Source: Nonomuraea rhodomycinica (lineage in GTDB: Bacteria > Actinomycetota > Actinomycetes > Streptosporangiales > Streptosporangiaceae). From it: a stretch of 64,000 nt of DNA. The translations under genes were made by a program, and so were the position numbers. This document shows positions 2,964-35,727 of the stretch, piece by piece; position 1 is the first letter of the stretch, and each line of letters begins with the position of its first letter. The notes below the pieces were generated by a model that saw nothing but the letters and a program-made list of their open reading frames with translations, ran no database searches and was not told the DNA's origin. The DNA is taken from the NCBI RefSeq assembly GCF_013363995.1, contig NZ_JABWGO010000001.1, positions 2,055,222 to 2,119,221 of the forward strand, read 5' to 3'.

Positions 2964-4625
2964 GTGAACCCTCCCCACTCCCCCACCCCGGCCTCCGTCC
3001 GGCAGTTCCTGCGGCAGCGGCGCGGCTCCGCCGGCGCCCTGGACCGGTACGTCACCTGGTTCGGCCTGGCCCTGGTCGCCGCGATCGCCGGGAAGCCGGT
3101 GTCCTCGCTCATCGCGAGCATGGCCGGGCAGCCGGCCCCGGCCCGCATGAGCGCGGGGCTGGCGCTGGTCCTGCTGGCCTTCGCCGGGTTCGTCGCCGCC
3201 GCCCGCGCCGCGGGGCCCGTCGCGCTGCCCGCCTCGGACGCGTCCTGGCTGCTGCTGTCGCCGCTGGACCGGCGCGGGGTCCTCGGCCGGACGCCCCGCG
3301 TGCTCGTGGTGACCGCCGTGGTGGCGGGTGCGCTGCTCGGGCTGGGGCTGCTCGCGGTGCTGGGCGCTCCTGACGCGTTCCTCTGGCGGCTGGCCGGGGC
3401 GCTGGTGCTCGGCGTGTCCATGACGGCGGGCGCCATGGCCCTGGCGGTGCTGGAGCAGGCGTCGAGGGTCTGGGACGGCTGGCTGGGGATCGCGTTGACG
3501 GCCTTGGTGACGCTGGCCGCGGTCCTGAGCGCGGCGGCCGTCGCCGCCCAGACGGCCCGCCCGGCACTGACCGGCGCCGGCCTGGCCACCGGGACCGGCC
3601 CGCTGCCCGGGAGCGGGTCGGCCACCGGGACGGTCGCGAGCGCCGCGGGCATCGTCCCGGCGGCAGTTCACGGGGTTCTGGGGGCCGTGGGCGCCGTGGC
3701 CGCCACTCCTCCGGCGGTCGTCGCGGCCGTCGCCACCGCGGCCGCCCTGGTCGCCGCCCTCCTCGTACGGCGGGCACGGGCGACCCTGGGACGCATGCCG
3801 GCCCGGGCGGTGCTGGCCGCCTCCACCCGGACGGCGCACGTCACCCGCGCGGCCGCGCTGCTGGACCCGGGAGCGCTGACCTGGATCGCCGAGGACAACC
3901 ACTGGCGGGCCAGGAGGCTCCGGTCCAGGAGGTGGCCGTCGCTCCCGGCTCCGGCGGCGCTGGCCTGGCACGACTGGCGCCGCCTGGCCCGCCGTCCGGG
4001 CCGCCTGGCCGCGATGGCGGCCTCCGCCGCGCTCCCCGCCGTCCTGTCCCGGGCCCTGGGCGTCACGGCGGCGGCTCCGTCGTCGGCCGCCGTGGCCGTG
4101 ACCGCCGGGGCCGTGCTGGCCGGAGCCCTGGCCATGGCGGCGGCCGTCGCGGCGGGCGCCCGGCGCGACGCCGACAACCCCGCCCTGAGCAGGCTCGCCG
4201 CCGTCGGCCTGCGGCCGGCGCTGGCCGCCCGCGCGGTGCTGCCCGCGCTGCTCGCCGCCGCCTGGACGGCCGCCGCGCTGACCGGTCTGACCCTGGTGGG
4301 CGCGCTGCCGGCCGGGGCGTGGTGGGCGTTCGGGCCGGCGATCGCCCCGGCTCTGGCGGCCGGGGCGCTGCGGATGGCGCGGCGGCGGCCGGTCGACCAC
4401 TCCATGCCGATCATCGACACCCCGGGCGGGGCCATCCCCACGGGGCCGGTGATCTGGGCGCTGACGGGTGCCGACGTCGCCCTGGCGGGCTGCCTGCCGG
4501 CGCTCGTCGCCCTCCTGACGCCACCGGACGACCTGGCCGTGCCGCTCACCCTCCAGGCCGTCGCCGGCGCGACGGCCCTCGCGGCCTACCTGGTGAGAGC
4601 CCGCAAGCCCAGGAACGATCGGTGA
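2964..4625 (+). CDS. Multi-helix membrane protein, probable ABC permease partner
   Basis: 553 residues, very rich in Ala, Leu and Val, with roughly ten to twelve hydrophobic helices and short Arg-rich loops. No extracellular domain of note. The GTG start has GAAGGA about 9 nt upstream. Its length and its place behind a lone ATPase match actinobacterial membrane proteins of the DUF6297 type that pair with one ABC ATPase; this family assignment is from memory and tentative. A single polypeptide could supply both membrane halves as a homodimer. Function unknown. Confidence 0.75.
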   Translation: MNPPHSPTPASVRQFLRQRRGSAGALDRYVTWFGLALVAAIAGKPVSSLIASMAGQPAPARMSAGLALVLLAFAGFVAAARAAGPVALPASDASWLLLSPLDRRGVLGRTPRVLVVTAVVAGALLGLGLLAVLGAPDAFLWRLAGALVLGVSMTAGAMALAVLEQASRVWDGWLGIALTALVTLAAVLSAAAVAAQTARPALTGAGLATGTGPLPGSGSATGTVASAAGIVPAAVHGVLGAVGAVAATPPAVVAAVATAAALVAALLVRRARATLGRMPARAVLAASTRTAHVTRAAALLDPGALTWIAEDNHWRARRLRSRRWPSLPAPAALAWHDWRRLARRPGRLAAMAASAALPAVLSRALGVTAAAPSSAAVAVTAGAVLAGALAMAAAVAAGARRDADNPALSRLAAVGLRPALAARAVLPALLAAAWTAAALTGLTLVGALPAGAWWAFGPAIAPALAAGALRMARRRPVDHSMPIIDTPGGAIPTGPVIWALTGADVALAGCLPALVALLTPPDDLAVPLTLQAVAGATALAAYLVRARKPRNDR

Positions 4626-4649: not shown

Positions 4650-6479
<1,830 letters not shown>

Positions 6480-8145: not shown

Positions 8146-11100
8146 GTGCGGGGGCCGTGGGTGCTCAGGCGCGCGCTCAGCGAGCCGTTGCTGCTGCTGG
8201 CGGCGTTCGGCTCGATCCTCCTGGCGACGACCACGCTGGTCTCGCTCACCCTGTACGCCACGTCCACGGCCGAGGCGGGCGTGCGGCGGGCGATGGAGAC
8301 CGCGTCGTTGCGCCAGGTGGCCGCGACCGTCTCCACCCCCGTGACGGCCGAGACGTTCCCCCGGCTCGACGCGGCCGTGCGCGAGCGGATCGGCTCCGCC
8401 TACGCCGGGGCCCCGGTCACGATCACGACGGCCTTCCGCTCCGACTCGTACGTGCTGCCCGGGCAGGAGCACCGGGAGCGGCCCGGACTGCTCAGGTTCG
8501 GCTCCTACGACTCCCTGGACCGGCACGCCAGGCTGGTGACGGGCTCCTGGCCGCGTCCCGCCCCCGCCGGGACCCCCGTGGTCGAGGCGGCCGTGTCCCT
8601 CTCGGCGGCGTCGGCGGCCGGGTGGGAGAGCGGGCAGGAGTTCACCACCCAGGGACGCCTCGACCACCGGACGGTGCGGGTGCGGATCACCGGCGTCTTC
8701 CAGCTCGACGACCCGTTCGGCGACCGCTGGGCCGGCGAGCAGCTCCTCAGCCGGGGCGTGGAGAGCGGCGGCTTCACCACCTACGGCCCGCTCATGGTGG
8801 TGCGCGAGACCTTCCTCGCCCGCTTCGCCACCAACGTGAACACCACCTGGACGGCGGTCCCCGACCTGCGCGGCATCACCCCCGAGGCGCTGCGGCCGTT
8901 CGCCGCGCGCGTGGCGGGGCTGCGCCAGGCCCTCCAGGACGGCGGCTGCGGCTCCTGCACCGTCACCAGCCGCCTGCCGGAGCTGCTGACCCAGCTCGGC
9001 ACGGCCGCGCTGGTCGCGCGCTCCACCATGCTCATCCCGGTGCTCCAGCTTCTGCTGCTCGCCGCGTACGCCCTCATGCTCACCGCGCGGCTGCTCGCCG
9101 ACCACCGCCGGATGGAGGTCGCGCTGCTGCGCTCGCGCGGCGCGGGCACGCCGCGCCTGGCCGCGCTCGCGGCCGGCGAGGCGCTGCTGGTGGCGCTGCC
9201 GTGCGCGCTCGTCGCGCCGTTCCTGGCCCCGCCGCTGCTGTCGCTCGTCGGGTCGCTGCCGTGGATCGCCGCCTCCGGCGTGCGGCTGGCGCCGCGGGCC
9301 GACCTGAGCACGTTCCTCGTGTCCACGGGCGTGGCGCTGGCCTCGGCGGTGCTGCTCGTGCTGCCCGCGCTCGCCGGCGCCCGCCGTACGTACGTGGAGG
9401 AGCAGGCGGCCCGCGGGCGCGGCGGGCGCGGCCTGGTCGAGCGGGCGGGCGCCGACGTCGCGCTGCTCGTCGTGGCGGCGCTGGCCATCTGGCAGCTGCG
9501 CCGGTACGGCGCGCCCGTCACCACCACGGCCACCGGCGAGCTGGGCATCGACCCGCTGATCGTCTCCGGGCCCGCGCTGGCGCTGCTCACCGGCGGCATG
9601 CTGGGACTGCGGCTGGTGCCGCGGATCTCCCGGTTCGCCGAGCGGCTGACCGCCCGCCGCCGCTCGCTCGCCCCGGCGCTCGGCGCCTGGCAGGTGAGCC
9701 GGCGCCCGCTGCGGTACTCCGGGCCGGCGCTGCTGCTGACCATGGCCGTCGCGATCGGCGTCATGTCGATGGCCACGGCGGCCACCTGGCGCACCTCCCA
9801 GCAGGACCAGGCCGACCACCGGGCCGGCGCCGACCTGCGGCTGTCGGGGCCGCCCGACGGGCCGGAGCTGGGCGCCCTCGGGCGCGGGACGGCGTTCGCC
9901 GCGCTGCCGGGCGTCACGGCGGTCTCCCCCGCGTTCCGGGGACAGGCGGAGTTCGGCGGCGGTGACGCGGTCCTGCTCGGGCTCGACGCCGCGCGGCTGA
10001 CCGAGCTGTTCCGGCTGCGCCCTGACCTGACCGACCGCGGCACGGGCGAGCTGTCGCGCGCCCTGCGGCCCGCCGGGCAGGGCTCCGGCGGGGTGGAGCT
10101 GCCCGGCGAGCCGGCCGCGCTCGCCGTCGAGGCCCGCTCCGACGCCGCGGCGCCGCTGCGGCTGACCGTCTCCGACGCGCTCGGCGTGTGGCGCGAGCTC
10201 CCGCTCGGCATGCTGAAGGCCGGCGCCAACCGGCTGGAGGCGTCCCTGGACGGGCTGGCCGGCCGCGGCGGGAAGATCGCTTACCCGCTGAGCGTCCGCG
10301 GCCTGACCATCGGGCCGGTCACGGAGGGCACGGCCGAGGTGACGCTGTCCGGCCTGGTCGCCGGCGGCCGTACGGTCGCCCTGCCGGGAGCCGGGACCCT
10401 GGAGGTCACGGCGGCGCGGCCGGTCGTCTTCACCCCGGGCCGGGCGCCGGCCCGGGAACCGCTGCCCGTGGTGCTCACCGCCGGGCTCGCCAAGTCGCTG
10501 AAGCTGCGCACCGGGCAGATCGGGCGCGTCACGCTGGACCGGGACGTGATCGAGGTGGAGGTGGCGGGGATCGTCGAGCGGATGCCCACGACGGCCGGCG
10601 ACCAGCAGGCCGTCCTCGCCGACTGGGGTGCGCTCCAGGCCCGCGCGCTGGCGGCGGGACAGCAGCCGAGGCCCGCGACCGAGTGGTGGCTGGCCGTGCG
10701 CGAGGGCGACACCGGGCCCGCCCGCGCCGCCCTCGGCCGCCATCCCCAGTGGGACGTGACCGCGGTGGACCGGCGCGAGGTGACCGCCGCGCTGCGCGAC
10801 GACCCGCTCGCCGGCGGCCTGCAGGGCGCGCTGATCCTCGGCTTCGTGGCGGCGCTGGTGTTCGCGGTGCTCGGGTTCCTCGTCAACGCCACGGTCGCGG
10901 CACGCGAGCGGTCGGCGGAGTTCGCGGTCCTGCGGGCCCTCGGGGTCAGCTCGCGGCAGCTGCTCGGGCTGCTGGCCGTCGAGCAGGCGTTCGTGGTCGG
11001 GCTGTCGCTGGTCGCGGGCACCGCGCTCGCCGCCGTCATGGGCGTGCTGGTCGTGCCGCACATCGTGCTGACCGGGCAGGCGTCGGCGGTCACGCCGGAC

Positions 11101-11232
11101 GTGGTGCTCGACGTCCCCTGGGCCGCGACCGCCGGCATGCTGGCGCTCGTGACGGCCCTGCTGTTCGTCATCGTCGCCGGGCTCGCGCGCAGCGTGCGCG
11201 GGCGCGGCGCCCGCCTCGGGGAGCTGCAGTGA
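8146..11232 (+). CDS. Large FtsX-type ABC transporter permease
   Basis: 1028 residues. A TM helix near the N-terminus (about 15-38) is followed by a large extracytoplasmic domain of some 290 residues, a block of TM helices (about 290-480), a second extracytoplasmic domain, and a final set of three helices with the FtsX-like pattern (ARERSAEFAVLRALGVSSRQLLGLLAVEQA). This is the MacB/LolC-type mechanotransmission layout with two FtsX domains. The GTG start has GGAAGGGGGG just upstream; the open frame extends further 5' but lacks a start with an RBS. The stop overlaps the GTG of the first of two decoy mini-ORFs, then comes a paralogous permease and two ATPases. Confidence 0.9.
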   Translation: MRGPWVLRRALSEPLLLLAAFGSILLATTTLVSLTLYATSTAEAGVRRAMETASLRQVAATVSTPVTAETFPRLDAAVRERIGSAYAGAPVTITTAFRSDSYVLPGQEHRERPGLLRFGSYDSLDRHARLVTGSWPRPAPAGTPVVEAAVSLSAASAAGWESGQEFTTQGRLDHRTVRVRITGVFQLDDPFGDRWAGEQLLSRGVESGGFTTYGPLMVVRETFLARFATNVNTTWTAVPDLRGITPEALRPFAARVAGLRQALQDGGCGSCTVTSRLPELLTQLGTAALVARSTMLIPVLQLLLLAAYALMLTARLLADHRRMEVALLRSRGAGTPRLAALAAGEALLVALPCALVAPFLAPPLLSLVGSLPWIAASGVRLAPRADLSTFLVSTGVALASAVLLVLPALAGARRTYVEEQAARGRGGRGLVERAGADVALLVVAALAIWQLRRYGAPVTTTATGELGIDPLIVSGPALALLTGGMLGLRLVPRISRFAERLTARRRSLAPALGAWQVSRRPLRYSGPALLLTMAVAIGVMSMATAATWRTSQQDQADHRAGADLRLSGPPDGPELGALGRGTAFAALPGVTAVSPAFRGQAEFGGGDAVLLGLDAARLTELFRLRPDLTDRGTGELSRALRPAGQGSGGVELPGEPAALAVEARSDAAAPLRLTVSDALGVWRELPLGMLKAGANRLEASLDGLAGRGGKIAYPLSVRGLTIGPVTEGTAEVTLSGLVAGGRTVALPGAGTLEVTAARPVVFTPGRAPAREPLPVVLTAGLAKSLKLRTGQIGRVTLDRDVIEVEVAGIVERMPTTAGDQQAVLADWGALQARALAAGQQPRPATEWWLAVREGDTGPARAALGRHPQWDVTAVDRREVTAALRDDPLAGGLQGALILGFVAALVFAVLGFLVNATVAARERSAEFAVLRALGVSSRQLLGLLAVEQAFVVGLSLVAGTALAAVMGVLVVPHIVLTGQASAVTPDVVLDVPWAATAGMLALVTALLFVIVAGLARSVRGRGARLGELQ

Positions 11233-11352
11233 AGCCCTTGGTGCCGGCGCGCGTCCATCGTGGGAGGGCGCTGTGAGGTCGTTGGTCCCGGCGCGCGTCC
11301 ATCCTGGGAGGCCGCTGTGAGGTCACTGGTCCCGGCGCGCGTCCACCTCGGT
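11229..11352 (+). repeat. Three tandem 44-bp copies of a start-codon cassette
   Basis: Units begin at 11229, 11273 and 11317, the third being partial. Each starts GTGA(A/G)G and encodes V-(K/R)-(P/S)-LVPARVH; copies 1 and 2 end with GGGAGG-N5-GTGA, i.e. an RBS and the next start. Copies 1 and 2 are therefore complete 15-codon mini-ORFs (VKPLVPARVHRGRAL and VRSLVPARVHPGRPL) chained by 4-bp GTGA overlaps. Copy 3 is the true start of the downstream permease. Confidence 0.9.
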
Positions 11353-13935
11353 CCGGTGGTGCTGCTCGGCGTCCTCACGCTGAGCGCGTGCCTGCTCGTC
11401 GGCGGGCTGCCGCGCGCCCTGCAGGCGTCCTTCGACGACGCCCTCCACGCGGCGCTGCGCGGCGCGCCGGCGCTCCAGACCGACCTGCTGGCGCAGGTGG
11501 AGCCGCCCGCCGCGGAGAACAGCCTGCGCGACCCCGCCCAGTTCGCCGCCGCCGACGCGCGGCTGCGCGCCCTGCTGCCCCCGGCGCTGCGGCCGCTCGT
11601 GCTGCCCGCCGGCCAGGGCACCAGCCACATGAGCGCCGTGACGTACGACACGCCGGTCCACGGCTCCAGCGGCAAGCGCTACCTCAACGTCGGCTGGCTG
11701 TCCGACGCCGACCGGCGGGTGCGCTGGACCGAGGGCCGCCCGCCCGGCGCCCCGGGCTCCATGACGTACGAGCGGGAGACCATCCCCGTGTTCGAGGTCG
11801 GCGTCTCCGAGGACGCCCGCGCCAAGATGGGACTGAAGGTCGGCACCACGCACATCCTCGGCGAGAGCGACTACGCGGCCGTCAAGGTCGTCGGCGTGTT
11901 CGCCGCCGTGGACCCGGCCGACCGTTACTGGAGCCTCCACAGCGACGTCCCCCGGGTGATCGAGACGCTGCCGCCCGGCGGCCTGGACTTGGAGCGCCGC
12001 GCGACCGCCCTCGTCTCGGCCGCGAGCCTGACCCGGCTCGACGGCGACGACCGCAACCTCGTCTACACCTGGACGCTCGGGCTGGACCCGGGCGCGCCCA
12101 CCTCGCTCGGCGTCGCCGACGTCGAGGCGGCCATCACCGACTACGAGCGGGCCGTGACGGTCGAGCCGGGCACCGCCGCCGGCCGCTACCAGCTCAACAC
12201 CCGGCTGCCCGAGCTGCTCGGCAAGTTCCTCACCGCGCAGAACACGGCGCGGACCGTGACGATCCTGGTCCTCGGCGGGCTGCTGGCCGTGGCCGCCGGC
12301 GTGATCGTGCTGGCCGTACGGCTGCTGTCCGAACGCGCGGACACCGCCCTGGCGCTCGCCCGGGCGCGCGGCGCGTCGCTGCCGCGCCTCGCGGCGGCCG
12401 GGGCCGGACCGGTGGCGCTCGCCGCCGTGCCGGCCGCCGTCGCCGGGTACGCCCTGTCCTGGCTGGTGCCCGGACCGCCCACGCTCGTCGTCCACGCCGG
12501 GCCGGCGCTGGTGCTCGCCGTGGCGCTCGGCTACGCCGCCGGGCGGCCGGTCGTCGCCCACCGCACGCCGTTGCGCGAGCGCCGCGACGACGTGGCCGCC
12601 GCCCGGCCGCCGCTGCGCCGGACCACGCTGGAGGCGCTGGTCGTGTTGCTCGCGCTGGCCGGGGCGTACCTGCTGCGCTCGCGCAGCCTCGCGGGCGAGG
12701 CCGGCGACGACCCGTTCCTGCTGGTCGTGCCGGTTGCGCTGACCGTGGCCGCCGCGCTGGTCACGATCCGCTGCTACCCCTACCCCCTCCGCCTCCTCGT
12801 ACGGCTGGCCTCGCGCGGCCGGGCGGCCGTGCCGTTCCTCGGCCTGACCCGGGCGGCGCGGGCCCGGCCGGCCAGCGTGCTGCCGGTGCTCATCCTGCTG
12901 CCGGCGCTGGCCGTGTCGGTGTTCGCCTCGGTGATCTCCAGTGGCGTGGGGACGGCGCAGCGGCAGGCCGCCTGGCAGGCCGTCGGCGCGCCGATCAAGG
13001 TGACGTCCCGCGTGGAGCTGCCCGCCGACGTGGTGGAACGGGTCAGGGCCGTGCCCGGTGTGGAGCTGGTGGTGCCCGCGCAGACCGGGCAGGTGCAGCT
13101 CGGCTACACCGGCGAGCGGGCCGAGGCCATCGCGGTGGACGTGGCCGCCTGGCGGCGGGTGCTGGCGGACTCGCCGGTCGGCCTGCCCGCGTTGCCCGCG
13201 TCCGCCTCCGGGCTGCCCGCGCTGGTCTCGCCGGAGCTGCACGGGCGCGGCACGATGGACATCGGCTGGCACGCCCGGGCGAAGATCACCGAGGCCGGCG
13301 TGGTCACGGCCGTGCCCGGGTTCTTCACCCGCGGCAAGTTCCTCGTGACGCCGCTGCGGGTCAACGCGCGGCCGTCCGTGAACACGCTGCTCGTCAAGGG
13401 CGACGCCGACCCGGCGGCGGTGGCCCGGGCCGTCCGGCAGCCGCTGGCGGTCGTGACCTCCCAGTCATCCGAGCTAGCCGCGATCCGCGACGCCCCGCTC
13501 ACCGGCACCGTGCGGGCCGTCCTCGCGATCACCACCGTGGCGCTGGCCGCGTACGCGCTGGTCGCCGTCGTCGTCATGCTGGTGATGGGGGCGGCGGACC
13601 GGACGCGGGCGCTGGCCTTCCTGCGCCCGCTCGGGCTGTCGGAGCGGCAGGCGCGCGGGCTGACCACGCTGGAGATCCTGCCTCTGGTGCTCGTCACCGC
13701 CCTGGTCGGCCTGGGGCTGGGGCTCGCCCTCCCGGCGGCGCTCGGGCCCGGCATCGACCTGTCGTCGTACGCGGGCGGGGTGGCCGTGCAGGGGTACGCC
13801 CCGGACCTGGCCGTGCCGGTGCTGCTGGCGGCGGGGCTCGCGGTGGCCGCCGGGCTCGGCGCGTACGTCCACACAGCGGCCGGGCGCGGACGCGGCACCG
13901 GGGCGACGCTCCTGCGGACGGGCGAGCTCACATGA
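11317..13935 (+). CDS. Second FtsX-type ABC transporter permease
   Basis: 872 residues with N-terminal TM helix, a 270-residue extracytoplasmic domain, a central TM block, a second external domain and C-terminal FtsX helices (ADRTRALAFLRPLGLSERQARGLTTLEI). Paralogous in plan to the preceding permease; the two probably form the heterodimeric membrane part of one transporter. The start chosen is the GTG of the third cassette copy, preceded by GGGAGG; reading through from upstream GTGs would only be possible in other frames. Its TGA overlaps an ATG that opens a 36-codon ORF. Confidence 0.88.
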   Translation: MRSLVPARVHLGPVVLLGVLTLSACLLVGGLPRALQASFDDALHAALRGAPALQTDLLAQVEPPAAENSLRDPAQFAAADARLRALLPPALRPLVLPAGQGTSHMSAVTYDTPVHGSSGKRYLNVGWLSDADRRVRWTEGRPPGAPGSMTYERETIPVFEVGVSEDARAKMGLKVGTTHILGESDYAAVKVVGVFAAVDPADRYWSLHSDVPRVIETLPPGGLDLERRATALVSAASLTRLDGDDRNLVYTWTLGLDPGAPTSLGVADVEAAITDYERAVTVEPGTAAGRYQLNTRLPELLGKFLTAQNTARTVTILVLGGLLAVAAGVIVLAVRLLSERADTALALARARGASLPRLAAAGAGPVALAAVPAAVAGYALSWLVPGPPTLVVHAGPALVLAVALGYAAGRPVVAHRTPLRERRDDVAAARPPLRRTTLEALVVLLALAGAYLLRSRSLAGEAGDDPFLLVVPVALTVAAALVTIRCYPYPLRLLVRLASRGRAAVPFLGLTRAARARPASVLPVLILLPALAVSVFASVISSGVGTAQRQAAWQAVGAPIKVTSRVELPADVVERVRAVPGVELVVPAQTGQVQLGYTGERAEAIAVDVAAWRRVLADSPVGLPALPASASGLPALVSPELHGRGTMDIGWHARAKITEAGVVTAVPGFFTRGKFLVTPLRVNARPSVNTLLVKGDADPAAVARAVRQPLAVVTSQSSELAAIRDAPLTGTVRAVLAITTVALAAYALVAVVVMLVMGAADRTRALAFLRPLGLSERQARGLTTLEILPLVLVTALVGLGLGLALPAALGPGIDLSSYAGGVAVQGYAPDLAVPVLLAAGLAVAAGLGAYVHTAAGRGRGTGATLLRTGELT

Positions 13936-14042
13936 CCGGCCACGCCCGCCTCCCCACGCAAGCTCTCATGTCCCGCCCCCGCACCGTCGCGAGCAGGCTC
14001 CTCATGACCGATCCCCACCCCCATCACGTCGCGAGCAGGTGA
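13932..14042 (+). CDS. 36-residue ORF bridging permease and ATPase genes
   Basis: Starts with an ATGA overlap on the permease stop and ends 7 bp before the next ATG. The peptide is MTGHARLPTQAL followed by Ser/Arg/His/Pro-rich sequence. It contains two copies of CGTCGCGAGCAGG 42 bp apart, each preceded by CTCATG, so it looks like a degenerate tandem duplication. It may serve only to couple translation across the gap. No protein family recognised. Confidence 0.35.
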   Translation: MTGHARLPTQALMSRPRTVASRLLMTDPHPHHVASR

Positions 14043-14049
14043 TCCCGCC

Positions 14050-14962
14050 ATGAACCCCACCCTGTCCGAGCTGGAGGCCCAGGCCGGCGCGCCCCGGGCC
14101 GCCTTCGGCGGCGACGCCCACATCGTGTGCGACAACCTCGTGCGCATCTACAAGACCGAGGGCGTCGAGGTGGTCGCCCTCCAGGGCCTGGACCTGCTGA
14201 TCGACGAGGGCGAGCTGGTCGCCGTCGTCGGCGCGTCCGGCTCCGGCAAGTCGACCCTGCTCAACGTGCTGTCCGGCCTGGACGTGCCCACCGCCGGCGT
14301 GGCCAGGGTGGCGGGCATGGACCTGCTGTCGATGACGGCCAAGGACCGGCTGCGCTACCGGCGGGAGGTGGTCGGGTTCATCTGGCAGCAGACGGCGCGC
14401 AACCTGCTGCCGTACCTGACCGCGCGCGAGAACGCCGAGCTGCCGGTACGGCTGGCCGGCCGCCGCGGCAAGGGCCGGGCGATGGAGCTGCTGGACCTGC
14501 TCGGCGTCGCCGACCGGGCCGGGCGCAGACCCGGCGAGCTGTCCGGCGGCGAGCAGCAGCGGGTGGCCATCGCCGTCGCGCTGGCCAACTCCCCGCAGCT
14601 CATCCTGGCCGACGAGCCCACCGGCGAGCTGGACAGCGACACCTCCGAGGAGGTGTTCGACGCCCTGCGCAAGGCCAACAGGGAGCTGGGCGTGACCGTG
14701 GTCATCGTGACCCACGACCCGCTCGTGGCCGAGCAGGTGGACCGGACGATCGGCATCCGCGACGGCCGTACCAGCAGCGAGACGCTGCGCCGGGAGGGCG
14801 CGGAGGGGCAGGTCGTCGCCGAGGAGTACGCCGTGCTCGACCGGGTCGGGCGGCTGCAGCTCCCGCGCGACTTCATGAACGCCCTGAACATGGAGCGCCG
14901 GGTACGCCTGGAGCTCGAATCCGACCATATCGGCGTATGGCCGGCCAGAGAGGAGCCCTCGG

Positions 14963-14973
<11 letters not shown>
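14050..14973 (+). CDS. ABC transporter ATP-binding protein (MacB/LolD type)
   Basis: 307 residues: Walker A GASGSGKST, Q-loop in FIWQQ, signature LSGGEQQRVAIAVALANS, Walker B LILADEPTGELD, H-loop VTHD. The C-terminal 65 residues after the ATPase core are an extra tail ending in LESDHIGVWPAREEPSGEQ, not seen in the companion ATPase. The operon context (two FtsX permeases upstream, a second ATPase overlapping downstream) indicates a heteromeric exporter or envelope-remodelling machine. Confidence 0.93.
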
Positions 14974-15661
<688 letters not shown>

Positions 15662-32437: not shown

Positions 32438-33627
32438 TGGCGCGCGAGCTGCTGGAGAAGACCGGCGTGACGCTCAGGGACGCCGTGGCCGACGACGCGG
32501 TGGCGGGGGTGACGCCGCGCTGGGTGGCGCTGCCGGAGACGGTCGAGGAGGTCTCGGCCGTGCTGCGCGCCTGCGCCGAGGGCGACCTCGCGCTCACGCC
32601 GGCGGGCGGCGGCACGAAGCTGCACTGGGGCGCGCCGCCGGAGCGCTGCGACGTGCTGCTCGACCTGTGCTGCCTGAACGAGGTGCTGGAGCACGCGGCG
32701 GGCGACCTGGTGGTGCGCGTCCAGGCCGGGGTGACGATGGGCGCCCTCGCCGGCGTGCTGGCCGCCGAGGGGCAGGAGCTGGCGCTGGACGCGCCGTCCG
32801 GGGCCACCGTGGGCGGCACGCTGGCCACCGCCGCGTGCGGCCCGCGCGCCTTCCGGTACGGGGCGGCGCGCGACCTGCTCATCGGCGTCACCGTCGTGCT
32901 GGCCGACGGCACCGTGGCCCGCTCGGGCGGCAAGGTGGTCAAGAACGTCGCGGGCTACGACCTGGGCAAGCTGTTCACCGGCTCGTACGGCACGCTGGGT
33001 GTGATCGCCGAGGCCGCGTTCCGGCTGCACCCGCTGCCCCCCGACCGGCGCTGGCTGGTGGTGGGCGACGCCCGGCGGCCCCGCGAGCTGGCCGCGGTCC
33101 TGGCCGCCTCCCAGGCCGAGCCCAGCGCGGTCGAGCTCGACCGGCCCGGCCCCGGCGCCCCGGTGGCGATGGCCGCGCTGGTCGAGGGCACGGCCGCCGA
33201 GGAGCGGGCGCGCGCCCTGCGCGACGCCGCCGGAGCGGGTGAGGTCTCGCCGGAGCCGCCCCCGTGGTGGGAAAGCTCGTGGTGGGACGCGCCGCCGGAC
33301 GAGGAGGTGCTGGTGGAGGCCCGGTTCCTGCCGAGCGCGCTGGACGGGGTGCTGGAGGCCGCCGACGCGCACGCGCTGCGGCTGCGCGGCTCGCCGGTCT
33401 CCGGCCGCCTGCGCCTGTCCCCCGCGGGCGAGGTCACCGAGGAGCGGCTGGCCGCCGCCGTGGCCGCGCTGCGGGAGCGGGCGCACGCCGCGGTCGTGCT
33501 GGCCGCGCCGTACGAGGGCGTGGACCGGTGGGGTCCCGTCGGCGCGCTGCCGCTGATGCGGCGGGTCAAGCAGCAATTCGACCCCGGGCGCAGGATGTCG
33601 CCGGGACGGTTCGCGGGAGGGATCTGA
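32437..33627 (+). CDS. glcE: Glycolate oxidase subunit GlcE
   Basis: 396 residues. FAD-binding type-4 fold: ALTPAGGGTKLHWG, LALDAPSGATVGGTLATAA, NVAGYDLGKLFTGSYGTLGVI. Shorter than GlcD and lacking the full oxidase C-terminal domain, as usual for GlcE. Translationally coupled to glcD. The last codons and stop are part of a 28-bp tandem duplication that leads into glcF. Confidence 0.93.
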   Translation: MARELLEKTGVTLRDAVADDAVAGVTPRWVALPETVEEVSAVLRACAEGDLALTPAGGGTKLHWGAPPERCDVLLDLCCLNEVLEHAAGDLVVRVQAGVTMGALAGVLAAEGQELALDAPSGATVGGTLATAACGPRAFRYGAARDLLIGVTVVLADGTVARSGGKVVKNVAGYDLGKLFTGSYGTLGVIAEAAFRLHPLPPDRRWLVVGDARRPRELAAVLAASQAEPSAVELDRPGPGAPVAMAALVEGTAAEERARALRDAAGAGEVSPEPPPWWESSWWDAPPDEEVLVEARFLPSALDGVLEAADAHALRLRGSPVSGRLRLSPAGEVTEERLAAAVAALRERAHAAVVLAAPYEGVDRWGPVGALPLMRRVKQQFDPGRRMSPGRFAGGI

Positions 33628-33664
33628 CATGGACCCGTTCGCGGGAGGGATCTGAGATGGACCC
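33609..33664 (+). repeat. 28-bp tandem duplication at glcE/glcF junction
   Basis: Two copies (33609-33636, 33637-33664) differing at three positions. Each holds GTTCGCGGGAGGGATCTGA, i.e. the glcE end with its RBS-like GGGAGGG, then ATGGACCC. The first ATG opens MDPFAGGI and stops; the second, at 33657, is the glcF start. The decoy of eight codons is a fusion of the glcF start with the glcE end. Confidence 0.9.
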
Positions 33665-34859
33665 GGAGCTGATCGACGACTGCGTCCACTGCGGGTTCTG
33701 CCTGCCCACGTGCCCGACGTACGTGCTGTGGGGCGAGGAGATGGACTCGCCGCGCGGCCGTATCCACCTGATGAAGCAGCACGTCGAGGGCACACCGGTC
33801 ACGCCCGAGATGGCCGGGCACTTCGACGCCTGCCTGGGCTGCATGGCCTGCGTCACCGCCTGCCCGTCCGGGGTGCGCTACGACCGGCTGATCGAGCTGA
33901 CGCGGGCCGAGGTGGAGCGCGTCCACGAGCGGGAGCCGCGTGAGCGGGCCGTGCGCGAGCTGGTCTTCGGCCTGTTCCCCTATCCGCGCCGGCTGCGGCT
34001 GTCCCGGCCGCTGACCGGCCTGACGCGGCGGCTGGCGCCGTTCCTGGAGCGGGCGCACCCGAGCCTGGGCGCGATGGCCGCGCTCACGCCCGTCGTCGAG
34101 CGGCGGCAGCGCCTGCCGCGCCTGGTACGCGCCAGGGGGCCGCGCCGCGCCGTCGTGGGCATGCTCACGGGCTGCGTGCAGCGGGAGTTCTTCCCGCAGG
34201 TGAACGCCGCCACCGCCCGGGTGCTGGCGCTGGAGGGCTGCGACGTGGTCATCCCGCCGGGCCAGGGCTGCTGCGGCGCGCTCAGCGTCCACTCCGGGCG
34301 CGAGGAGCAGGCCAGGCGGCTGGCCCGCCGCACGGTCCGCGTGTTCGAGCGGGCCGGGGTGGACACCGTGGTGGTCAACGCCGCGGGCTGCGGCTCGTCG
34401 ATGAAGGAGTACGGCGAGCTGCTCGGCGCCGAGCCCGCCTTCCGGGTGCGCGACCTGTCGGAGTTCCTGGCCGAGCTGGGTCCGGTGGCCACGCGGCATC
34501 CGCTGCCGCTCGTCGCGGCCTACCACGACGCCTGCCACCTCGCCCACGCGCAGGGGGTACGGGCCCAGCCGCGCGCCCTGCTGGCCGGCATCCCGGAGCT
34601 GGAGCTGCGCGAGGTGCCCGAGGCGGCCATCTGCTGCGGCTCGGCCGGCACGTACAACATCTTCCAGCCCGAGGCCGCCCGCGACCTCGGCGACCGCAAG
34701 GCCAAGGGAGTGGCCTCGACCGGCGCCGAGCTGCTGGTGTCGGCCAACCCGGGCTGCACCATGCAGATCGCCGCCGCCATGCGCCGGGCCGGGGCGTCGA
34801 TCAGGGTGGCGCACACGGCCGAGGTGCTGGACGCCTCGCTGCGCGGGGTGCCGCTGTGA
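33657..34859 (+). CDS. glcF: Glycolate oxidase iron-sulfur subunit GlcF
   Basis: 400 residues. Two 4Fe-4S clusters are bound by CVHCGFCLPTCPTY (about 9-22) and CLGCMACVTACPSG; two CCG-type domains follow (GQGCCGALSVHSG and AAICCGSAGTYN), as in heterodisulfide-reductase-like proteins. Passes electrons from GlcDE to the respiratory chain. Start at the second ATG of the duplicated cassette, with GGGAGGG 7 nt upstream. Confidence 0.94.
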   Translation: MDPELIDDCVHCGFCLPTCPTYVLWGEEMDSPRGRIHLMKQHVEGTPVTPEMAGHFDACLGCMACVTACPSGVRYDRLIELTRAEVERVHEREPRERAVRELVFGLFPYPRRLRLSRPLTGLTRRLAPFLERAHPSLGAMAALTPVVERRQRLPRLVRARGPRRAVVGMLTGCVQREFFPQVNAATARVLALEGCDVVIPPGQGCCGALSVHSGREEQARRLARRTVRVFERAGVDTVVVNAAGCGSSMKEYGELLGAEPAFRVRDLSEFLAELGPVATRHPLPLVAAYHDACHLAHAQGVRAQPRALLAGIPELELREVPEAAICCGSAGTYNIFQPEAARDLGDRKAKGVASTGAELLVSANPGCTMQIAAAMRRAGASIRVAHTAEVLDASLRGVPL

Positions 34860-34902: not shown

Positions 34903-35655
34903 GTGAGCGTGCAGTCGATCGAGCGGGCGCTGGACGTGCTGGAGAGCCTGGCCGAGCACGGCGGCGCGGCGGGCCTGTCGGAGATCGCCGCCAAGACCGG
35001 CCTGCCGTACGGGACGATCCACCGGCTGCTGCGCACGCTGCTCGCCCGGGGCTACGTGCGTCAGGAGTCCGACCGGCGCTACGCGCTCGGGGCCGGCCTC
35101 ATGCGGCTCGGCGGGGTGGCCGAGGGCATGGTCGGCGCGTGGGCGCGGCCGTACCTCGCGCGGATGGTGGAGCTGTCCGGCGAGACGGCCAACCTCGCCG
35201 TCATGGAGGGCGACTTCGTCGTGTACGTGGCGCAGGTGCCCTCGCCGCGGCGGCTGCGGATGTTCGCCGAGGTGGGCCGGAGGGTCCTGCCGCACAGCAC
35301 GGCCGTGGGCAAGGTGCTGCTCGCCGACCGCGCCGCCGACGACGCGGTGACGCTGCTGGAGCGCACCGGCATGCCGCGCCGCACCCCGAACACCATCACC
35401 GAGGCCGGGGCGATGCTGGCCGAGCTGGACCGGGTGCGGGCGCTCGGCTACGCCATGGACCTGGGCGAGGAGGAGCTGGGCGTGCACTGCCTGGCCGTGC
35501 CCGTCAGCGACGGCGAGCGGGTGGTGGCCGCCATGTCGGTGTCGGGGCCGGCCGAGCGGATCGACGCGGTGGACCGCGAGGAGCTGGCCGAGGGCATGCG
35601 GGGCATCGCGCGGGCGTTCGGCGTGGAGCTGGCGCCGGTGACGGGCGAGCGCTGA
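34903..35655 (+). CDS. IclR-family regulator, probable glyoxylate/glycolate repressor
   Basis: 250 residues. N-terminal winged HTH (AGLSEIAAKTGLPYGTIHRLLRTLLARGYV) and C-terminal IclR effector domain (VLPHSTAVGKVLLA, LAVPVSDGERVVAAMSVSG). 43 bp after glcF, so the last gene of the operon. Probable autoregulated repressor of the operon, with glyoxylate or a relative as effector (inference from context and from IclR of E. coli). GTG start; another GTG two codons later is possible. Confidence 0.9.
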   Translation: MSVQSIERALDVLESLAEHGGAAGLSEIAAKTGLPYGTIHRLLRTLLARGYVRQESDRRYALGAGLMRLGGVAEGMVGAWARPYLARMVELSGETANLAVMEGDFVVYVAQVPSPRRLRMFAEVGRRVLPHSTAVGKVLLADRAADDAVTLLERTGMPRRTPNTITEAGAMLAELDRVRALGYAMDLGEEELGVHCLAVPVSDGERVVAAMSVSGPAERIDAVDREELAEGMRGIARAFGVELAPVTGER

Positions 35656-35727
35656 CGGCGTCGGCCACCACGGATTCCGACGGTGCCGGCCACCACGGAT
35701 TCTGACGGTGCCGGCCACTACGGTTGA
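35653..35727 (+). repeat. Three 25-bp units between iclR and DUF2277 gene
   Basis: Units begin at 35653, 35678 and 35703; consensus TGACGGTGCCGGCCACCACG plus GATTC. The first starts on the iclR stop codon, the third ends GGTTGA three bases before the ATG at 35731. Copies 1 and 2 differ at three sites; copy 3 has drifted at its end. Confidence 0.9.

Follow-up and report, generated by a model that had tools for sequence, protein, structure and literature searches.

Mini-ORF chains from duplicated gene junctions in Nonomuraea as candidate bridges between coupled genes

Mycobacterial interspersed repetitive units (MIRUs; Supply et al. 1997, as covered by the review PMC12548453) are, according to that review, repeats that seem to be mobile and lie inserted at start codons. 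In the termination-reinitiation pairs of Huber et al. (2019, 2023; PMC6728339, PMC10666635) two genes, often coding for subunits of a single complex, are joined by a 4-nt RTGA overlap. According to Huber et al. (PMC10666635), 14 additional nt cut re-initiation by 40–80% in native E. coli pairs and 38 additional nt nearly abolish it; the terminal 15 nt of the upstream gene are enough for re-initiation in E. coli. It is disputed whether the terminating ribosome itself moves on to the overlapping start or another ribosome is newly recruited (PMC10666635, PMC12548453), and one ribosome-profiling study, cited in PMC10666635, favours de novo initiation at coupled E. coli genes. Bicistronic designs and synthetic nonsense leader ORFs (PMC13255528) feature a short leader with an internal Shine-Dalgarno (SD) motif by its stop, which feeds the next gene. 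The minigene located before txe (PMC8708949) is a tiny ORF with a cis effect on the cistron that follows, and there the distance from stop to start matters.

An array with features in common with all these systems was found in the window (the whole stretch of 64,000 nucleotides analysed), which is part of a Nonomuraea genome of 9.6 Mb. It resides in an ABC transporter operon at 8146–15661, made by two FtsX-type permeases and two ATPases, all on the plus strand. Permease 1 spans 8146..11232 (Pfam FtsX PF02687, E 2.2e-17); its start at GTG 8146 is a reading of the ORF, the Pfam query having begun one codon further upstream. Permease 2 (11317..13935; PF02687, E 3.2e-8) begins VRSLVPARVHLGP; both permeases score above the Pfam cut-off for the FtsX domain. 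ATPase 1 (14050..14973) and ATPase 2 (14963..15661) match Pfam ABC_tran with E 4.3e-30 and 4.3e-33, respectively. Pfam and NCBIfam name the transporter parts in general terms only.

Three start modules, as read from the sequence, lie between the permeases, with GTG codons at 11229, 11273 and 11317 and a 44-bp spacing. The first two open mini-ORFs of 15 codons, mini-ORF 1 (11229..11276, plus strand; VKPLVPARVHRGRAL and stop) and mini-ORF 2 (11273..11320, plus strand; VRSLVPARVHPGRPL and stop). Neighbouring ORFs are linked throughout by 4-nt GTGA overlaps: the TGA of permease 1 (11230–11232) overlaps the GTG at 11229, the terminal GTGA of mini-ORF 1 overlaps mini-ORF 2, and that of mini-ORF 2 overlaps permease 2. 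SD-like GGGAGG motifs are found on the plus strand 5 nt before GTG 11273 (11262..11267) and 5 nt before GTG 11317 (11306..11311), with duplex energies of −10.7 and −10.2 kcal/mol, respectively, computed with an assumed anti-SD tail. The GGGAGG-N5-GTGA arrangement noted in the sequence-only reading holds for the second and third starts; at the first, GGGGAG-N5-GTGA is found, which is the end of permease 1 itself. Tandem Repeats Finder delimits a repeat at 11238–11345 (period 44, 2.5 copies, 92% matches, score 181), and a separate repeat search found three copies with spacings of 44 and 44; the three 44-bp start copies, the two 15-codon ORFs and the 4-nt overlaps described earlier are borne out by the sequence. 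Six of the 44 bases are different between copies 1 and 2, so the array is not a single copy assembled twice; the doubt about an assembly artefact is answered also by two sister genomes, which have arrays of their own. Folding at the three starts gave z values of −1.94, 0.26 and −0.26, nothing clear beyond composition, and an RNA-switch reading was dropped for this reason.

Overlaps of 4 nt, which with those of 1 nt define coupled termination-reinitiation pairs, mark every step of the chain, and the anatomy could pass ribosomes on through them, as had been noticed. Compared with the pairs of Huber et al., with which the array shares the RTGA overlap, one or several mini-ORFs are interposed here between long genes. 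Both mini-ORFs hold the SD motif of the next gene and a stop overlapping the next start (GGGAGG-N5-GTGA), as do the leaders of bicistronic designs described in PMC13255528, but the array is natural, intra-operon and serial, and apparently derives from junction duplication. The txe minigene, as presented in PMC8708949, measures two codons, ends 15 nt from the start, and involves no duplicated junction. MIRUs share with the modules at 11229, 11273 and 11317 a short repeat and a small ORF coupled to the neighbour gene by a 4-nt overlap, a layout that lets MIRU DNA occupy a start codon while expression changes little (PMC12548453), and that may do so here. MIRUs are interspersed, whereas the 88-nt array has no second copy in its own genome. 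Searched against that genome, the array matched itself (1.2e-39) and had a next best E of 0.211, and an origin as a mobile repeat was set aside as unsupported. Among the titles and abstract openings of the matches listed, in a coverage that leaves most subscription papers outside, no paper on mini-ORF chains originating from junction duplication was found.

The path from the permease 1 stop was followed at 44 distinct FtsX junctions among the matches listed, nearly all from Nonomuraea, some of them paralogues, with 11 repeated FtsX sequences counted once. In 38 of the 44 the stop of permease 1 overlaps the start of permease 2 directly. Loci in this and similar ortholog walks are the best matches of each search (best 30 at most), so that some genomes are unrepresented; L024, L029, L196 and L251, where the upstream-gene match is absent, and L026–L028 were left out. 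Alignment of the junction in relatives, the check that the sequence-only reading had proposed, revealed related but different arrays in N. montanisoli and N. roseoviolacea: the window array comprises two 15-codon mini-ORFs, against a single one in N. montanisoli (15 codons) and in N. roseoviolacea (13 codons). In the last species a second unit of 36 bp (0 mod 3) is in frame with permease 2, and adds 12 residues to it. Single mini-ORFs were found in three more genomes, two from Nonomuraea and one from another family, and measure 9 (L022), 23 (L047) and 37 (L025) codons; the L047 path seems to stop inside permease 2, and the case is doubtful. In L022 (genome G013), the permease 2 homologue has one internal TGA, beside the independent 9-codon mini-ORF.

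Mini-ORFs in the window share their N-terminus (V..LVPARV) with the start of permease 2. The C-terminus of the N. roseoviolacea mini-ORF (RLGRAL and stop) resembles the end of permease 1 (RLGELQ and stop), and CCTCGG is present on both sides of the junction. Judged from these matches, the mini-ORF is a duplicated gene junction, the start of permease 2 joined to the end of permease 1, as a tandem duplication would make. The suggestion that the array is a by-product of duplication is supported to this extent, in what concerns its origin. Copy 1 of the window and copy 1 of N. montanisoli differ by a single base out of 44, while window copy 2 and the last N. montanisoli copy are identical over their first 29 bases. 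On these similarities, the simplest history would be one duplication in the common ancestor of the three species, and a second 44-bp duplication in the window lineage.

The operon contains another bridging mini-ORF (13932..14042, plus strand; 36 codons), which joins permease 2 to the first ATPase. It overlaps the permease 2 stop by ATGA, and 7 nt separate its end from the ATPase start. In the two sister species its counterparts measure 60 and 35 codons and contain internal repeats. Among 24 permease 2/ATPase joints, 14 are direct NTGA overlaps, 6 feature a bridging ORF, 1 an extension, and 3 are not linked in any of these ways. The six bridged joints are those of the window, the two sisters, L019 (12 codons), L013 (25 codons) and L021 (2 codons); the bridging ORFs of L013 and L021 have a TTG start.

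Similar arrays mark the genomes of many Nonomuraea. Paired modules (GGAGG-N5-RTGA, 15–45 nt, GGAGG-N5-RTGA) were searched in 54 genomes of the genus, and 74 were found in 35 of them, against 12 in 4 genomes for the reversed pattern; an RTGB control pattern showed no excess in the same genomes (353 versus 404 reversed). Unit lengths of the 74 modules are 2, 0 and 1 mod 3 in 45, 22 and 7 cases, respectively. Modules merge into 65 sites, of which 43 pass and 22 fail a junction test, which asked for a long in-frame ORF of high GC3 downstream and for no coding read-through from upstream. At 32 of the 43 junction sites the first RTGA closes an ORF of 100 codons or more. Similarity between units averages 0.62 within a site and 0.33 between sites, with 26 of 52 above the 99% null quantile; each unit here copies its own junction, and this speaks against mobile insertion of the kind that PMC12548453 attributes to MIRUs. 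Eight pairs of flanking genes were assigned by Pfam on both sides. Five appear to encode parts of the same complex: nitrate reductase beta/delta, Mrp antiporter subunits, two BPD_transp_1 pairs, and one ABC2 pair, whose hits are below the Pfam cut-off. The other three are not obviously subunits (enolase-like/SDR, LacI-type binding domain/xylose-isomerase-like, acyl-CoA dehydrogenase/luciferase-like).

At the 43 junction sites the length of the last unit is 2, 0 and 1 mod 3 in 35, 5 and 3 cases, respectively (chi-square p 1.8e-10 versus thirds), and with one count per gene-B cluster (n=31) the phases are 24/5/2. Nine gene-B clusters comprise two or more sites. Six of them have 2 mod 3 lengths throughout (35/47; 41,47/50,50/35; 44/32; 35/44; 56/41/32/35; 35/35); the remaining three are 58/32, 29,29/58, where 58 conceals a middle start, and the cluster to which the window belongs (44/36). 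In L118 a middle start has GGAGA in place of GGAGG, and the unit would split into 29+29. L102 and L118, both 58 nt, were kept as 1 mod 3, and L130, which failed the junction test, was left out. That units are free of stops is uninformative, since 92% of shuffled units are also open.

Stop-start paths were followed in four gene-pair families, FtsX, ABC2, BPD and NarJ, with 44, 30, 40 and 29 distinct junctions, respectively. All 143 junctions, among the matches listed, lead by RTGA steps to an ORF of 60 codons or more, taken as gene B in its usual frame by eye, from its length; 121 do so directly, and 22, a number including the doubtful L047, via one to four mini-ORFs. The longest path, in L193, has four serial mini-ORFs (11, 11, 13 and 12 codons) between two BPD_transp_1-type permease genes.

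The mini-ORFs are probably bridges that keep termination-reinitiation coupling across duplicated DNA. A junction duplication in the ancestor of the three Nonomuraea species would have created a 15-codon ORF with GTGA at both ends. At the 4-nt overlap seen in most relatives, a ribosome finishing permease 1 could re-start at once, and a 44-nt insert, if untranslated, would be expected to break contact between the permeases; the spacing effects reported for E. coli (PMC10666635) imply that such an insert should uncouple them unless translated. Units of 2 mod 3, having their own SD motif and GTGA, would relay ribosomes from permease 1 to a 15-mer, to a second 15-mer, and to permease 2. Units of 0 mod 3 would lengthen the second protein, and units of 1 mod 3 would send ribosomes out of frame into the second gene. 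This order, 2 > 0 > 1 mod 3, is that of the frequencies at the 43 junctions, and for this the mini-ORFs are read as bridges. Number and length of the units would drift, while the path remains unbroken, and the peptides themselves probably do nothing. The label of decoys given earlier is unsupported as stated, for the phase bias in Nonomuraea and the unbroken paths suggest that coupling is kept and ribosomes are not diverted. From the observed anatomy, duplication, recurrence and phase bias within Nonomuraea we infer that mini-ORFs are translated, that re-initiation occurs at each step, and that the same ribosome steps through. Against the relay were counted the 36-bp unit of N. roseoviolacea, the L047 path, an RNA structure that is not clearly unusual, and the phases outside the genus; the strong SD motif at each start also counts against it, and leaves room for independent initiation, as does the profiling study on E. 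coli cited in PMC10666635.

If each downstream start worked on its own, the phase of an inserted unit would be invisible to selection. Arrays could be neutral duplications whose downstream start is used via its own SD, with a phase bias due solely to codon-phased microhomology at slippage sites. We hold this to be unlikely. From the second start on, each has a GGGAGG of its own, and unit number and length vary among the sister species, both of which speak for a by-product; lengths of sister mini-ORFs, however, differ by whole codons (15/13; 36/60/35). The contribution of microhomology was estimated by counting in the 121 direct junctions all blocks able to seed a junction duplication of 29–59 bp. 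Because codons are GC-phased, microhomology by itself yields about half phase 2, i.e. 48–53% with a minimum block length of 4, 5 or 6 nt; with a minimum of 7 or 8 nt few blocks are left (25 and 13, with 36% and 31% phase 2), and these were set aside. The phase-2 counts in Nonomuraea exceed this null by site (binomial p 5e-6 to 1e-4) and by cluster (0.0007 to 0.005). At the level of the order, 41 of 121 genomes, Nonomuraea included, had a match. Outside Nonomuraea 51 rows in 36 genomes have raw phases 15/31/5 for 2/0/1 mod 3, and 12/17/5 with one row per repeated sequence; 14 of 32 sites put in context are junctions, and their phases (8/5/1) go in the same direction, but are not clearly above the null. 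Microhomology would thus explain part of the bias, and the remaining excess suggests selection for an unbroken ribosome path in Nonomuraea; the data support, without proving, the use of the upstream starts in this genus. Since the excess is demonstrated in Nonomuraea alone, confidence in the relay was lowered slightly, and that in a by-product raised slightly.

Arrays may also set the ratio of the two proteins, ribosomes being lost at each step, so that copy number would fix the amount of permease 2 relative to permease 1 and be selected for it. This is compatible with the relay, and improbable as the reason why arrays are kept. Copy number varies among the three sisters, and one BPD_transp_1 permease-pair junction features 0 to 4 mini-ORFs across the genus; yet copy number is inconsistent at compared junctions (2 versus 1 and 1 in the sisters), no fixed setting is conserved, and partners are presumably needed in near-equal amounts. 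Placed immediately before a transporter gene, the short ORFs recall regulatory leader peptides stalling ribosomes on a signal, a role that we consider highly improbable: no conserved stalling peptide is found, as peptides measure 15 or 13 codons with different residues in the sisters, those at other junctions are unlike, and RNA structure is not clearly special.

Arrays are natural experiments on the question of stepping versus recruitment, and exemplify a route by which small ORFs originate. It is conceivable, though rather doubtful, that coupled junctions of high-GC actinomycetes are a birthplace of serial mini-genes, copied stop-start joints becoming self-contained cistrons whose number may change without touching either protein. 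Surviving arrays, filtered for phase, would on this tentative proposal record ribosomes stepping through overlaps, and arrays could serve at once to tune subunit ratios and to supply the material from which new small proteins are made.

At three joints the window organism exceeds both sisters by one unit: the permeases, a BPD_transp_1 pair (14,14 codons versus 14 and 14 in the sisters), and a joint at 33609–33665. The latter, by its sequence, is an independent second case within the window. A 28-bp junction duplication (Tandem Repeats Finder, 33609–33665) has created there an 8-codon mini-ORF (33629..33655, plus strand; MDPFAGGI and stop), absent from both sisters. The duplication keeps a stop-N-start spacing, and 28 is 1 mod 3, the phase which such spacing needs. 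Genes flanking it are a glycolate-oxidase-like pair, as judged by eye. In L122 a 39-bp in-frame start repeat features four starts (MTAPTSTDATEAG-like units), and would lengthen the downstream protein. In the window, repeats at 4087–4115 and 4808–4848 lie inside a stretch open in at least one frame, and a 25-bp repeat at 35654–35723 (2.8 copies) is apparently located between two plus-strand genes.
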